The translations under genes were made by a program, and so were the position numbers. Below, in pieces: positions 2,920 to 21,677 of a stretch of 64,000 nucleotides of DNA (position 1 is its first letter; the number at the start of each line of letters is the position of its first letter). Origin of the DNA: Alphaproteobacteria bacterium (lineage in GTDB: Bacteria; Pseudomonadota; Alphaproteobacteria; Elsterales; Elsteraceae); NCBI GenBank assembly GCA_004292755.1, contig RDXE01000025.1, positions 248,001 to 312,000 of the forward strand, in the 5' to 3' direction. Under the pieces are notes generated by a model. That model did not search any database. It saw only the letters and a program-made list of their open reading frames with translations, and was not told the DNA's origin.

Positions 2920-4830
2920 ATGGTGACCATTCCGCCCACGGCGCTGCCACCGGGCACCAGCGGCGCGCCAGCTCCAGCACCTCCCACGCCAGCCCCAGCG
3001 GCGGGTGTGCCAGGCGGCGCGCCTGCCGCCACCGGTCAACCCCTAGCGCCAAGCACCGCGACACTGGCGACGACTGCCCAGGCGGCGGTCGTCGTCTCCA
3101 CCACGGTGACCCAGCGTCAGCCGCAAAGCCTGCCCGGCATTTTGTTCCCACCGCCACAGACGCCACCGCCACCACCACCCACGCCATCGCCGCAAGCCGC
3201 GTTGCCCAGCGTGCCCGCAGCCCCGGCCTCTGCCGGTAGCGCGACGCCCGCTGCTGCGGTTGTGCAGCAGACCGTGGCGAACCTGCCGCTGCCGACCGGC
3301 GCGGCCGCCAGCGCGGGCAGTGGCATTCCCGGCACACCGCCACCGCTCGCCCTCGCCAACGGGACAGTGCCGCCGCCCGCCAATCTGGTGAAGCCACCGG
3401 CCTGGACAGCCGCCTTGCCGACAGGTGCCCAGGTGCCCGGCGTGGTGCTGTCCCGCTCAGCCGAGGGGTTGGCCGTGGTGCGCACGGCCCTCGGACCTGT
3501 TGCCATTGCGACCCCGCTGCCGCTGCAACCGGGTACACCCGTGACCCTGTCGGTGCAGACACCGGGTGCTGCGGGAACCGTACAGGTGCTGGCACCGCGC
3601 CAGCCAATCGTGATGCCGCCGGGCGCCGCCCCGCTGCCCGGTCAGACAGTCTCCGCCACCTTGATCCAGGCACCGCCAAATCAAGGCACCGCCGCCCTTG
3701 CCCTGCCCGGCAGTGGCGCGCAGGCCAGTCCCTTGCTGACGGCACAGTTGGCCGGTCAAGCTGTGGTGGAGGGTGCACCAGCGATCCCGTTTGGCTTGTC
3801 CGGCGCGGGAGACAGGGTGTCGCTGCGGGTGGTCACTGTGAACCAGCCAGCCGTTGCCAATCCAGCCCAGCCAGCCGGTGCGACGGCTGGAGCGGCGGGC
3901 ATTCTGGCCAATGCCGCTGCGGCTGCCCGGGCCGCCCTCGCCAGTGCCAGCGGCCTTGCCACGCCGCTGCTCGGTGCTTCTGCCCCGCCGGTCGCGACGG
4001 GGGGCGGTCCCGCGCTGACCGCTCAGGTGGTGGGCGCCACTGTGGCGGCACAGCCGGTGGTGCTGGCTGGCGGCTCGTTGCTGGCGCTGGAGACGGCACC
4101 TCTGCCGGTCGGTACCTCAATCACCTTGCAATCTGTGGCGCGGCTGCCCAGCGCAGGATCGGCCCCCCTTCCCCGTGGGACCGAGAGCCTGCTGGCCAAC
4201 TTGACCCAGTTGATGGATCAGGTGGACAGCCTGCCGGTTGCCGCGCAAACCGCACTGCTGGCCGCCATCCCGAAGCCGGGCCCGCGCCTCGCGGCCGAGA
4301 TGCTGCATTACCTGGGCGCGCTGCGGACGGGTCAGGCAGGCAACTGGATTGGCGAAGGCTTGAGGGTGGAGCTGGAAAAGTCCGGTCGTGGCCGGGCCGC
4401 CAAAGTGCTGGGTGATGACTTCCAGCAGGCGAGCAAAGACGTCTCAGCCCAATCCAGTGACTGGCGGGTCTATACCCTGCCGATTGCCCACCACCAGGTG
4501 GTGCAGCCGGTCCGCCTGTTCGTCCACCGGGCAGACGGGGATGAGGACGATGGTCGCGACCGCAGCGGCGACGGCACGCGCTTTGTGATCGACTTGGACC
4601 TCAGCGCCCTCGGTCCGATCCAGATCGACGGCTTTTCGCGCCCGCCGCGCCTGGATGTGGTGCTGCGCACGCCAACCGTCCTGCCGGAGCCGCTGCGCAT
4701 CGACATGCTGCAGATGTTCGCTGGCGCCACCCAGGCCCGCGGCGTGGTCGGCGCTCTCAGCTTCCAAGTCGCCCCGCGCGTCAATCCGCTGGTGCCAAAG
4801 CCAGTGGAGCGTCCTGGCTGGGTGGTGTGA
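2920..4830 (+). CDS. Pro/Ala-rich protein of flagellar operon, possibly FliK-like
   Basis: 636-residue protein starting 1 nt after flhG. The first ~430 residues are low complexity (Pro, Ala, Gly, Thr, Val; for instance PPPPPPTPSPQ). The C-terminal ~180 residues look folded, with FVIDLDLSALGPIQIDGF followed by LRIDMLQMFAGATQARGVVGALSFQV. A disordered Pro/Ala-rich N part followed by a compact domain containing an 'LDL..LG.I.V' motif is the layout of hook-length control protein FliK. That identity is inference from layout and operon context, not a firm match. The last 50 nt overlap the 3' end of the convergent XRE gene. No signal peptide is visible. Confidence 0.6.
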   Translation: MVTIPPTALPPGTSGAPAPAPPTPAPAAGVPGGAPAATGQPLAPSTATLATTAQAAVVVSTTVTQRQPQSLPGILFPPPQTPPPPPPTPSPQAALPSVPAAPASAGSATPAAAVVQQTVANLPLPTGAAASAGSGIPGTPPPLALANGTVPPPANLVKPPAWTAALPTGAQVPGVVLSRSAEGLAVVRTALGPVAIATPLPLQPGTPVTLSVQTPGAAGTVQVLAPRQPIVMPPGAAPLPGQTVSATLIQAPPNQGTAALALPGSGAQASPLLTAQLAGQAVVEGAPAIPFGLSGAGDRVSLRVVTVNQPAVANPAQPAGATAGAAGILANAAAAARAALASASGLATPLLGASAPPVATGGGPALTAQVVGATVAAQPVVLAGGSLLALETAPLPVGTSITLQSVARLPSAGSAPLPRGTESLLANLTQLMDQVDSLPVAAQTALLAAIPKPGPRLAAEMLHYLGALRTGQAGNWIGEGLRVELEKSGRGRAAKVLGDDFQQASKDVSAQSSDWRVYTLPIAHHQVVQPVRLFVHRADGDEDDGRDRSGDGTRFVIDLDLSALGPIQIDGFSRPPRLDVVLRTPTVLPEPLRIDMLQMFAGATQARGVVGALSFQVAPRVNPLVPKPVERPGWVV

Positions 4831-17083: not shown

Positions 17084-17803
17084 GTGCTCAGCGCGGCAGG
17101 CATCTGGGATGGCGTGGCCCCGGCGGTGTTGTTCGTCGTCTGGGTCACCTACCAATGGCTGTTTGGCTCCACCAAGCCCCGCGCCAACAGCTTGAATGCT
17201 GGCATGGCGGAGATGCGGGTGGCCTGGATGCGTGCGGTGTTGGCGCGTGACAACCGCATTATGGATGGTCAATTGGTGGGGCATTTGTTGACCTCCGCGA
17301 CGTTTTTCGCCTCCACGACTGTGTTGGTGCTGGCCGGGCTGGTCAGCGCCCTTGGCGCTGCCGATGACGTGTACGCGGCCGTGCTGCGCCTGGCGCTGAT
17401 TCCAGGCCGTGGCCAGGGGTTCTTGGAGGCCAAGATTCTGCTGCTGATCGCCATCTTTATGTATGGCTTCTTTCAGTTCACCTGGGCGGTACGCCAGTTC
17501 AACTATTTCATCGCGGCGCTGGGCGCTGCCCCGGCACCCAAGGACTTGGCCGAGGAGATGGTGGACGGGGTGGCGCGTGATATGGCCGCCCTGTTGTCCC
17601 ACGCGGTGATGAGTTTCAACTCCGGCATCCGCGCCTATTACTTCGCGCTCGCCACCTTCGGCTGGTTTCTACACCCGCTGGCGATGATCGCGCTGACCGT
17701 TGCCGTCGCCCTCATTCTCGTGCGCCGCCAAACCGGCGCCGGTGCCGCCCAGGCCGTTGGCGCCTTGGGCGGACGGTTGGGCGGCAGGTTACCAATCCTT
17801 TAG
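17084..17803 (+). CDS. DUF599 family membrane protein
   Basis: 239-residue integral membrane protein starting with GTG 9 nt after the ALDH stop. Four or so transmembrane helices are visible (PAVLFVVWVTYQWLF, FFASTTVLVLAGLVSAL, ILLLIAIFMYGFFQFTWAVRQFNY, PLAMIALTVAVALILV). MRAVLARDNRIMDGQLVGHL, FFQFTWAVRQFNY and NSGIRAYYFALATFGWFL are typical of DUF599. Function is unknown; co-transcription with the ALDH gene is likely from spacing. Confidence 0.85.
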   Translation: MLSAAGIWDGVAPAVLFVVWVTYQWLFGSTKPRANSLNAGMAEMRVAWMRAVLARDNRIMDGQLVGHLLTSATFFASTTVLVLAGLVSALGAADDVYAAVLRLALIPGRGQGFLEAKILLLIAIFMYGFFQFTWAVRQFNYFIAALGAAPAPKDLAEEMVDGVARDMAALLSHAVMSFNSGIRAYYFALATFGWFLHPLAMIALTVAVALILVRRQTGAGAAQAVGALGGRLGGRLPIL

Positions 17804-18112
17804 CGCACCGCCGACCGCAAAGACCGGGCGAGCGCTTTCAGGACTGCCGAGGCAGACTGACTATCCTCAGGATCAACCATCTGGTTGTGATCCAGCAGAG
17901 TCAACACTGCCGACAAGTGCGGCATGTCCTGCGGCCAAATGTCGGGGTCAAAGACCGGCACTCGACACCCCCAATCTACGATCTAACCGTCACGCCGCTG
18001 CGAGCGTAGGAATCAAAACTCAATCGTTCAATCGTCTTTTTGTCCCGGTACCAATCTCCAAAGCTGTATCGATTACAGTGTGTCTCGCTCTTTTTGACGA
18101 CTCTGCTGCCCG
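17804..18112. other. 309-bp intergenic region between convergent genes
   Basis: It separates the DUF599 gene from the convergently oriented septoil-knot gene. I see no plausible gene and no strong terminator hairpin. Two short copies of CAAAGACCGG (17819 and 17952 region) are present but not otherwise organised. Confidence 0.5.
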
Positions 18113-18433
18113 CTACGGCACCCCTGGGAAGGACGTGACCATCTGAATCTTCAAGTCTGGAAAGCTGGTCACATACTGGATCTTCAAGTCAGGAAACGAG
18201 GTGACAAACTGCCATTTGCCGCATCGGTCAGGAAAACTGGTCACCACCTGAACCTTCAGGTCGGGAAAGCTGGTCACCACCTGGACCTTCAAATCCGGGA
18301 AGCTGGTGACCACTTGAACCTTTCCAAACAAACGTTTGCCATTCAGGGTACAGGCGGATTTGTCCACTCGGCTGGCAGCAGACAACGGCAGGCTCAGCAG
18401 CACCATGGCAGCCACAATCAAACCAGTGCGCAC
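18113..18433 (-). CDS. Small exported repeat protein, 7(1) septoil-knot type
   Basis: 106-residue protein with a signal peptide (MRTGLIVAAMVLLSLPLSAA, cleavage near residue 20) and a mature part of about 86 residues. The mature part is almost entirely six copies of an 11-residue unit VTSFPDLKVQV (residues 39-104), one enlarged by RCGKWQF. Cys28 and Cys71 could pair. From memory of the family, this VTSFPD repeat with C-T-L-N-G-K at the front and a central CGKW marks the 7(1) septoil-knot domain, a roughly 80-residue knotted beta protein of unknown function. GTG 18433 is chosen because AAGGGGG lies 6 nt upstream and it supplies a proper signal peptide. It is divergent from the DUF3616 gene. Confidence 0.8.
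   Translation of the reverse strand: MRTGLIVAAMVLLSLPLSAASRVDKSACTLNGKRLFGKVQVVTSFPDLKVQVVTSFPDLKVQVVTSFPDRCGKWQFVTSFPDLKIQYVTSFPDLKIQMVTSFPGVP
18129..18331 (-). repeat. 33-nt coding tandem repeats (six units)
   Basis: The units encode the VTSFPDLKVQV repeats. Nearly every copy uses different synonymous codons: Phe TTC/TTT, Pro CCG/CCC/CCT/CCA, Leu TTG/CTG, and Ser from both AGC/AGT and TCG/TCC sets. The array is therefore old and held at protein level, not a recent slippage product. Confidence 0.85.
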
Positions 18434-18596
18434 CGCTACCCCCTTGTGATCTTTGACAGCGGCACTGTGAGTTCGCGGGCGGACCCGGTCAACTCCAGCA
18501 GTGGGTCGCCTATCCACAGATGAGTCACTGCGCTGACGCACACCTGTCGCGGACCTTCGTGTAGGCACCACCCCGATTGTCACGACCGCCATCGGG

Positions 18597-21500
18597 ATGC
18601 GCCAGATGTCTCAACTCGCCCTGTGGACCTTCAACGCCGGTGCACCCTTTGCGCTGGGGACTGCGATCTCCGCCGCTCAGGATATGGTGCCAGGCACGCC
18701 ACGCCTGACCCCCTATGGTGGTGCCACCTACACCGCCGCAGGGGTGACCGGCACGGCCTATAATGACGGCACCACCAACCACAGCGACGGTCAGGCGCTG
18801 TCCTGGGCGGCGACTGGCACAAATGATACGTCCAACGGCTACTCTATTGTGATGGAGCTTAGTACCGTTGGGGCAACGGGCATTGACGTCCGGCTTGACT
18901 ATAACTCCAACGCCGCTGGCACGAACCGGCTGGACTTCCTGTACAGCCTAGATGGGTCAAACTGGGTTCGCCACGTCAACAACCAGTCCATCACCCGCAA
19001 TGGTACCTGGCAGTCGCTGGACATGACGGGCACCTTCCCGACCATTCTGGACAATCGCGACCGGGTGTTCATCGCGATTGCAGACCCTAGCGCCAGCAAC
19101 CAAACCTCCTTCGACAACATCCAGGTCAATGGCACCACGCTCGCCAATGCCAATGCGCCGCGGATCACGGGAATGCCCAGCGGCATTGCGACTGACCGGC
19201 TGGACCAAACCGATGTGGCGCGCACCCGCGGCTATACCATCACCCTGACCGATGCCGACACCGCCACCAGCGCCTTGACCGTCACGGCCACCAGTTCAAA
19301 CCAAGCTGTGCTGGCCGACAGCGCCATCCGTATTGCGGGGTCCGGCGCCACCCGCCAGGTACTGTTCGACGCAACCGGCACTGGCGTTGCCACGGTTACC
19401 CTCACGGTGAGCGATGGGGTGTTGAGCACCACCCGCACGGTAAGCGTTGCAGCCTCCGGCGTGGCAGTGAATACCAGCACGGCTACCACCCACTTCTTGT
19501 CCGGTGCGGCAGATCTGTCGACGGCGGTGACGCTGAACGGCCAGATCATCACAGCCAATGACGAGGATCAGATCATTCGCGTGTACACGCCGGGCGCCTC
19601 TGGCGCACCGGTGGCATCGCTGCCGCTGCAACCGATTGACCCAGCTCCGCGCAGTGCGCCGCTCAGCCTGACCAACTCCGGCGACGGCATCACCCGTGAG
19701 ATGGACATTGAAGGCTCCACCCTGGTGGGCAACCGAATTTGGTGGATTGCCTCGCACTCCACCAATTCCGATGGCACCTCCAACCGCATCAATCGAGAGC
19801 GTTTGTTTGCCACCGATGTGACGGGGACAGGTGCCAACACCGCGCTGTCCATTGTTGGGCACTACAGCCATCTGGAGACCGACCTCTCCAACTGGGACAC
19901 CAACAACACCCACGGCCTGGGCGCCAACTTCTTCGGGATCAATGCCTCGCGTCAAACTGGGGTCGTGCCAGAGGCCGCCAATGGCAGCGGCTGGAACATC
20001 GAAGGCCTGACCCTGTCGCCCGACAATGGCGCCCTGTGGGTGGCAATGCGGGCGCCGATCGTTCCGGCTACGGCGCGCACCCAGGCGCTGATCGTGCCGG
20101 TGACCAACTATGACGCCATCATCAATGCCACCGGTGGTACGGCGGGCACGGCTGTGTTTGGCACACCAATCCAGCTGGATCTTGGGGGCCGCGGCATCCG
20201 CTCCATCGAGCGTGCAGCCGACGGCACGTATCTCATCGTGGCGGGGCCCGCAGGCTCCGTCGGGGCCGCCCCGAATGACTTCCGGCTGTATCTGTGGAAT
20301 GGGCAGGCAAACTCCGCCCCGCAGCAGCAAATGGTCAATCTGTCGGGCCTGCTGAATGGCGGCAGCATTGAGGGGATTGTGCAACTGCCGCCGTCCCTGT
20401 CCCCCGGCTCTACCGTGCAGCTGCTGCTGGACATGGGCGATGCCCAGTTCTACGGCGACGGCACCAGCAACAAGGAGCGTGTTGAGCCCGACCAACGCCG
20501 CTCGGCCGTGGTCACAGTGCGTCTAGATGGCACTGACCTTGTGGTGCCAGCGACCACCGTCACCAACACGACCGTGGCTGGCACTCAGATTGACGCGCCT
20601 GTGGGCACCAGCGTCACGCTGGCCCCCGGTACTGGCCAAGCGCTTGCACCCAGTGCAGCAACCACAGGGCTGCAAACTGCAGCCCAGGCATTGCTTCCCG
20701 GAACAGCAGACAGCAGCGACGCGCGCGCCGCCATCGCTGCCTTCACCAGCAGTGCAGGCACCCAGGCGATCACGGTCAGTGAAGTGTCGCTGAGCGCCAC
20801 CACTGCGACACCCACCGTGGTCTCGATCGCGGGGTCTGCTGGGCTCGACGCCCTGGTCCTCTCGGCCGATCGGCTGCCCAGCGGCAGCCAAATCATCACC
20901 ACTGCTGTGGACATGGTGATCGTCGGCGGCCCCGTCAGCGTGACCACCACCACGGTCGGCGCACACCTCATCGGGGATGAGGCGAACCAAACCTTCCGGC
21001 TGGCCACTGGTGCGGAGACGGTGACGGCAGGCCCCGGCGATGACCTGGTCTTCCCAGGCCGCGGCAATGATTCCGTTGAGGGTGGCACCGGTGTGGATGT
21101 TGTCGTACTTGCGGCTGAACGCGGACAAACAACCATCCGCCAGTTCGGCCTGTTCGCCAGCGTAACCAGCGCCGATGGCACCGATCGTCTGGCCCGGGTG
21201 GACAGTGTGCAGTTCACCGATGGCACGCGCACGGTGCTGATCCCCTCCGCCATGTCCGAGCTTGCACCAAGCAGCCAGACCGTGATCGCCCAACGCGGGT
21301 TCGATGCGGCGTTCTATCTGGCTCGCAACGCCGATGTGCTGGCGACCATTCAGCTGCCTGCCGGTGATCTGCAAGCCCAGGCCGCCGCCATGTGGCAAGC
21401 GGCGCGCACCCACTACGCCCAGTTCGGCTGGCGCGAAGGGCGCGACCCCAACAGCCTGTTCCAGACCAGCTCGTATCTCAGCAGCAATCCTGACGTTCGC

Positions 21501-21677
21501 GCCGCAGGGATTGACCCGCTGGACCACTATCTGGCGTTCGGGGCCCGCGAAGGCCGCGTGCTGACGGACTTCAACGCCAGCGCCTATACGGCTGCCAACG
21601 CCGACGTTCGGCTCGCCGGCGTTAACCCGCTGGAACACGCCCTGCAGTTCGGGTTCAGCGAAGGCCGCGCGGTCTAG
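18597..21677 (+). CDS. Large exported DUF3616 protein with C-terminal NPDV-type repeats
   Basis: 1026-residue protein without a Sec signal, so probably secreted by a type I system. Order of parts: N-terminal beta-sandwich (LALWTFNAGAPF to about 190), a cadherin/Ig-like segment (GYTITLTDADTATSALTVTA, about 210-285), and a DUF3616-like propeller (about 365-620, with NRIWWIASHSTNSDGTSNR, GWNIEGLTLSPDNGALW, GIRSIERAADGTYLIVAGP). A single RTX-like stretch follows (AGPGDDLVFPGRGNDSVEGG, about 810-835). It ends in three copies of a ~45-residue unit (YLSSNPDVRAAGIDPLDHYL, FGAREGR; about 902-1026), common at the C terminus of alphaproteobacterial secreted proteins. ATG 18606 is an alternative start. 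It is followed by a terminator-like hairpin. Confidence 0.8.
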   Translation: MRQMSQLALWTFNAGAPFALGTAISAAQDMVPGTPRLTPYGGATYTAAGVTGTAYNDGTTNHSDGQALSWAATGTNDTSNGYSIVMELSTVGATGIDVRLDYNSNAAGTNRLDFLYSLDGSNWVRHVNNQSITRNGTWQSLDMTGTFPTILDNRDRVFIAIADPSASNQTSFDNIQVNGTTLANANAPRITGMPSGIATDRLDQTDVARTRGYTITLTDADTATSALTVTATSSNQAVLADSAIRIAGSGATRQVLFDATGTGVATVTLTVSDGVLSTTRTVSVAASGVAVNTSTATTHFLSGAADLSTAVTLNGQIITANDEDQIIRVYTPGASGAPVASLPLQPIDPAPRSAPLSLTNSGDGITREMDIEGSTLVGNRIWWIASHSTNSDGTSNRINRERLFATDVTGTGANTALSIVGHYSHLETDLSNWDTNNTHGLGANFFGINASRQTGVVPEAANGSGWNIEGLTLSPDNGALWVAMRAPIVPATARTQALIVPVTNYDAIINATGGTAGTAVFGTPIQLDLGGRGIRSIERAADGTYLIVAGPAGSVGAAPNDFRLYLWNGQANSAPQQQMVNLSGLLNGGSIEGIVQLPPSLSPGSTVQLLLDMGDAQFYGDGTSNKERVEPDQRRSAVVTVRLDGTDLVVPATTVTNTTVAGTQIDAPVGTSVTLAPGTGQALAPSAATTGLQTAAQALLPGTADSSDARAAIAAFTSSAGTQAITVSEVSLSATTATPTVVSIAGSAGLDALVLSADRLPSGSQIITTAVDMVIVGGPVSVTTTTVGAHLIGDEANQTFRLATGAETVTAGPGDDLVFPGRGNDSVEGGTGVDVVVLAAERGQTTIRQFGLFASVTSADGTDRLARVDSVQFTDGTRTVLIPSAMSELAPSSQTVIAQRGFDAAFYLARNADVLATIQLPAGDLQAQAAAMWQAARTHYAQFGWREGRDPNSLFQTSSYLSSNPDVRAAGIDPLDHYLAFGAREGRVLTDFNASAYTAANADVRLAGVNPLEHALQFGFSEGRAV

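Follow-up and report, generated by a model that had tools for sequence, protein, structure and literature searches.

A chromosomal gene for a six-unit relative of the knotted protein Q9PR55 with a predicted signal peptide

Introduction

The 64,000-nucleotide stretch of alphaproteobacterial DNA analyzed here (the window) encodes a small, strictly repetitive protein, which a preliminary description of the sequence had called a relative of the septoil-knot (7_1) protein. This raises the question whether the protein belongs to that family and what it might do for its carriers. To our knowledge, no protein structure has been solved with a knot more complex than the 7_1 of Q9PR55, a knot for which we know of no role, and the earlier statement that the family has no known biological role still stands.

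The Window Encodes a Relative of Q9PR55

The knot-family gene lies on the minus strand of the window at 18113-18433. Its GTG start codon at 18433 has a ribosome-binding-like AAGGGGG a short way 5' of it, and its 106 codons are followed by a stop codon ending at 18113. The mechanically called open reading frame opens further 5', at ATG 18592; we favor the GTG, because the lengths of homologs and the signal peptide fit this start. Since more than 100 relatives have the same architecture, a chance reading frame is excluded. The GC content of the gene is 54%, compared to 64% for the window.

On the sequence itself, the preliminary description was accurate: a signal-peptide start is followed by six VTSFPD-type units with a CGKW insert. 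The predicted Sec signal peptide comprises residues 1-20 (MRTGLIVAAMVLLSLPLSAA; 18374-18433, minus strand, as are all features of the gene), with a putative cleavage site. The cysteines are residues 28 (18350-18352) and 71, predicted to be disulfide partners. The units start at residues 42, 53, 64, 77, 88 and 99. Units 1 to 3 (VTSFPD; 18293-18310, 18260-18277 and 18227-18244) are separated by the C71-G-K-W74 insert (18212-18223) from units 4 and 5 (VTSFPD; 18188-18205 and 18155-18172) and unit 6 (VTSFPG; 18122-18139). The six units thus consist of the same amino acids except for the final D or G, whereas all six 18-base DNA sequences differ. The use of different synonymous codons, including both Ser codon families, had been pointed out before and was borne out by counting: Ser is encoded by AGC, AGT, TCG and TCC, and the codon is shared in 34 of 85 same-residue comparisons (0.40).

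The sole significant sequence match in the PDB was UU089.1 (Q9PR55) from Ureaplasma (entries 8iwa, 8iwb, 8iwc, 8jrm and 8w68; phmmer E-value = 5.9e-15), and a profile built from 62 sequences retrieved Q9PR55 at an E-value of 4.3e-17. In the PDB, 8jrm bears the title "Solution structure of a 7_1 knotted Q9PR55". Further, residues 11-106 of the protein matched positions 9-103 of the 103-position profile of phrog_6462 (PHROGs v4, unknown function) with an E-value of 3.4e-35, and phage homologs matched the same profile with E-values of 1e-22 to 1e-50. No Pfam or NCBIfam family scored above the cut-off for the window protein. BA_2335-like and DUF6893 were rejected as candidates, giving only weak repeat matches in some members. 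On the basis of sequence and model (see below), the window protein is a clear relative of Q9PR55 and a member of the UU089.1 knotted beta-strand family, which PHROGs lists as phrog_6462.

The preliminary description had also named PF19647 as the family accession and had proposed that a family match well below an E-value of 1e-5, together with a knotted model, would support its assignment. Kinship with the septoil-knot protein is supported by the match to Q9PR55 and by a confident knot-family fold, but the accession does not hold: PF19647 is DUF6150 in the Pfam copy used, the window protein has no match to it, and a search with PF19647 in 8 genomes carrying relatives gave no match to the knot gene.

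Architecture Is Nearly Invariant and Units Change Together

Pattern scanning of species-level genomes yielded at least 365 relatives, 80 of which were fetched. They occur in about eight phyla (Pseudomonadota, Myxococcota, Spirochaetota, Cyanobacteriota, Bacteroidota, Bacillota, Synergistota and Fusobacteriota). The six-unit build recurs among the first 85 proteins, every one of which has Gly at the end of its last unit. An N-terminal hydrophobic stretch is conserved in 119 of 123 homologs, in agreement with the signal peptide predicted for the window protein. Both cysteines are present in 118 of these 123 proteins, neither in 4 and a single one in 1, and the Trp of the insert is invariant across the alignments. 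The six-unit architecture and the Cys pair, which is kept or lost together, are therefore nearly invariant. The four Cys-less members are labeled Negativicutes or Synergistes, which are anaerobes, and the absence of cysteines there would fit the loss of a periplasmic disulfide.

Several loci depart from the common form. Three very diverged members from one alphaproteobacterial genus (L129, L130 and L131) have lost SFPD and retain the Cys pair, CGxW and the final Gly. At another locus, a full-length knot gene is accompanied by an upstream truncated copy (L021:2514-2702 and 4070-4396), as if recombination between repeats had removed the middle: the truncated paralog (L021_2) lacks the four middle units and keeps only units 1 and 6, and may thus be a naturally occurring variant without the knot. 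A tandem of two members, one typical and one strongly diverged, is found at L059:1295-1609 and 1686-2036, and genome G404 (L123 and L132) contains two copies as well.

Within one protein, units are more alike at positions 2, 3 and 4 than expected when unit columns are permuted among proteins, and this holds after thinning to <60% identity, although the permutations leave some relatedness in place. At position 2 (T/N/E/D/S), the residue is the same in 0.37 of unit pairs versus 0.19 expected. Changes from S to A or from SF to IA affect most units of a protein, resulting in proteins with IAP in all six units (L004), AFP in all six (L023 and L024) or GED in several (L100). Codons do not follow this pattern. 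Codon identity among units within a gene was 0.51 against a null of 0.50. When near-identical genes were compared in pairs, the fraction of shared codons was 0.74 between orthologous units and 0.42 between other units. These values rule out recent gene conversion as the source of the likeness; old conversion with later synonymous saturation may have been its source. As the units are alike in the protein while their codons are not homogenized, selection at the protein level is the best explanation, and packing in a quasi-symmetric core is probably its basis.

The co-change of variable positions could also be read as the mark of a structural protein of the surface or matrix, or of a ligand binder with six equal faces, whose matched units form a repeated binding surface. 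We regard this as unlikely: the conserved V, S, F, P and D look structural, core packing may itself explain the co-change, and no ligand-binding motif was recognized.

The Gene Is Patchily Distributed and Lacks a Universal Partner

Among the genomes sampled, the knot gene was carried by 12 of 385 from Alphaproteobacteria, including that of the window, and by 12 of 242 from the cyanobacterial class. All 12 cyanobacterial-class homologs have the six-unit architecture of the exported type with Cys...CGxW. None of eight relatives from the same genus or family carries the gene. In a tree of the family, phyla are intermixed and many forks are unresolved. The family is widespread yet patchy.

In the single congener, the two genes that flank the window's knot gene lie about 150 bp apart and the knot gene is absent; in the window their spacing is 793 bp (17804-18596), with the knot gene inside this intergenic stretch. 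Therefore, the gene was either gained in the window lineage or lost in the congener. No second copy of the intergenic stretch was found in the genome, and promoter and terminator scans returned nothing. Translations of window positions 11.4-26 kb, read by eye, revealed chromosomal genes (pth, rplY, aldehyde dehydrogenase, radC and map) and no prophage around the knot gene. The adjoining plus-strand gene (18597-21677) encodes a protein of 1026 aa with weak DUF3616, RTX-repeat and phytase-like matches and occupies the same place in the congener. On the 3' side of the knot gene, at about 17803-17975 on the minus strand, a short open frame ending in ...LSAVLTLLDHNQMVDPEDSQSASAVLKALARSLRSAVR is possibly a gene remnant.

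Clustering of neighbors across 16-kb loci revealed no universal partner, only clade-specific ones, and the knot proteins had no match among the anti-phage defense proteins of PADLOC. A conserved operon occurs in Myxococcaceae, where the knot gene lies 6-11 nt 5' of a gene for a trypsin-like lipoprotein, and genes for a caspase-fold protein and a CsgG/LpoB-TPR protein come next (for example L008:7995-14467, with relatives L010-L012, L020 and L022). Together with the resistance of Q9PR55 to ClpAP, this operon would suit a secreted protein that either inhibits proteases or, itself resistant to proteolysis, partners with a protease at the cell surface. Such a role seems distinctly unlikely for the family, since the operon is confined to one clade, other lineages have unrelated neighbors and no protease beside the knot gene, and nothing resembling a reactive loop was recognized.

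One Phage Lineage Carries the Gene as an Optional Tail-Operon Insert

IMG/VR contained 21 loci with a knot-family gene, while a separate phage collection gave no match. In Leptospira-type phage contigs, so assigned because of a matching plasmid-borne copy in Leptospira weilii, the knot gene lies inside the tail operon, co-directional and tightly packed, in two different tail modules. In one lineage it sits between the gp25-like and baseplate J genes, in the other between the genes for a Pam3_gp18-like plug and a gp41-like hub. Such packing, with hub, spike, gp25-like and baseplate J genes as neighbors across both modules, is what would be expected of a structural or assembly part of the phage tail, in the baseplate region, of which chromosomal copies would be relics or domesticated descendants. 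However, among 26 contigs whose baseplate J is at least 75% identical, the knot gene is present between gp25-like and J in only 14; in the remaining 12 it is absent without a tblastn trace, and the order of gp25-like and J is unchanged. The phage knot proteins also retain signal peptides, although tail parts assemble in the cytoplasm, and in phage L003 the gene and its tail-gene neighbors face in opposite directions. We thus hold a tail component to be very unlikely.

In the lineage with the gp25-like and J site, the phage homologs are optional inserts in a conserved morphogenesis operon (14 versus 12 of 26 contigs), as is characteristic of morons. Being optional, apparently exported and sometimes inverted, the phage gene looks more like cargo than like a tail part. 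In a published survey of transposable Leptospira prophages, which describes their structural modules, a word search turned up nothing on morons, signal peptides, knots or superinfection (PMC8705779). Most chromosomal copies are isolated, with housekeeping genes of unrelated function as neighbors, so that the setting in phages may be a poor guide to what the protein does in general.

Predicted Fold and Knot Type

AlphaFold2 modeled the mature window protein from 62 sequences with six strands at high confidence (pLDDT 95.5, pTM 0.83). In a Foldseek search of the PDB, all matches with an E-value <0.001 were Q9PR55 chains; the superposition on 8iwa_A was moderate (TM 0.58/0.63, probability 1.00, rmsd 3.3 A, 51% identity). 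A Foldseek search of BFVD returned nothing significant. For the most diverged phage form (L169) the AlphaFold2 model is of low confidence (pLDDT 52), and its fold is therefore unproven.

The homolog P73136, a Synechocystis protein, is probably of the six-unit exported form, because all cyanobacterial-class homologs found have that form. In published AlphaFold topologies, Q9PR55 is a 7_1 knot with a core at residues 27-83, and P73136, of 112 residues, is a 5_1 knot with a core at residues 45-94, a pair of homologs with different non-trivial topologies that was described as unprecedented (Brems et al. 2022, PMC9278004). If P73136 has the six-unit form, its core would have its counterpart near residues 39-88 in the window protein. 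For the window protein, 5_1 would be a better guess than 7_1, because its six-unit exported form resembles the cyanobacterial one and its superposition on Q9PR55 is only moderate.

Short identical repeats can also form solenoids, but an unknotted short beta-solenoid that resembles the knot through its repeat sequence only is highly improbable, given that Foldseek ranked Q9PR55 chains first and gave no other significant match, that the alignment with Q9PR55 continues through the irregular middle part, that the number of units is fixed at six, unlike in most solenoids, and that P73136 is reported as 5_1 (PMC9278004).

Discussion

We consider it probable that the window gene encodes an exported, disulfide-stapled, very stable six-unit knotted module and that it is an accessory gene moving horizontally; any protective role is a separate matter. 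The chain would be secreted through Sec and its signal peptide removed. The mature chain would then fold compactly, its six short strands forming a quasi-symmetric bundle with SFPD turns between them, probably closed by a Cys28-Cys71 disulfide, and its backbone would probably be a torus knot, 5_1 being likelier than 7_1. The resulting module, either periplasmic or extracellular, would be very stable and resistant to proteases and unfolding. This step draws on the stability of Q9PR55, which Hsu and colleagues are said to have found in 2024 to be monomeric and exceptionally stable, both chemically and mechanically. The gene itself would be accessory, mobile between lineages and outside any fixed pathway.

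Its benefit might lie in protecting the envelope of the carrier, as lysogenic-conversion or superinfection-exclusion cargo in phages, with chromosomal copies having been domesticated. A protective role is a guess that we hold to be rather unlikely. Quite unlikely, too, is the fuller proposal that the family is a phage-borne, exported factor for superinfection exclusion or envelope protection, carried as an optional tail-operon insert and repeatedly acquired by chromosomes, with its units kept equal by structural coupling in a torus knot and not by gene conversion. If it were true, the most complex protein knot would gain its first biological role.

The window protein adds a member to a known, rare kind of protein. 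New are the distribution over at least 365 relatives and about eight phyla, the near-constancy of the six-unit architecture and of the jointly kept or lost Cys pair, the co-change of units without codon homogenization, the congener site without the knot gene and the optional insertion in the tail operon of one phage lineage. The comparative set describes a large family of fixed six-unit architecture whose members are predicted to be exported and probably contain a disulfide. Because whole unit sets change (SFPD to AFPD or IAPD, partly to GED) while codons stay different, the family is a natural test of unit co-evolution in a knot. Handles on function are offered by the Myxococcaceae operon and by presence and absence of the gene at two kinds of site, in phages with and without it at the same position and in the congener.

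Compared to known systems, the window protein does not match the PF19647 (DUF6150) model. Its match to phrog_6462 extends over nearly its full length, but the window copy is chromosomal and no phage genes were seen nearby. P73136, compared by its published description, is of similar length. Q9PR55 has the VTSFPD repeat as well, is 51-55% identical where the two proteins align and is the best Foldseek match. It differs in having five recognizable units, no CGxW insert and a two-residue insertion in its alignment with the window protein, whereas the latter has six units, a predicted signal peptide and a Cys pair.
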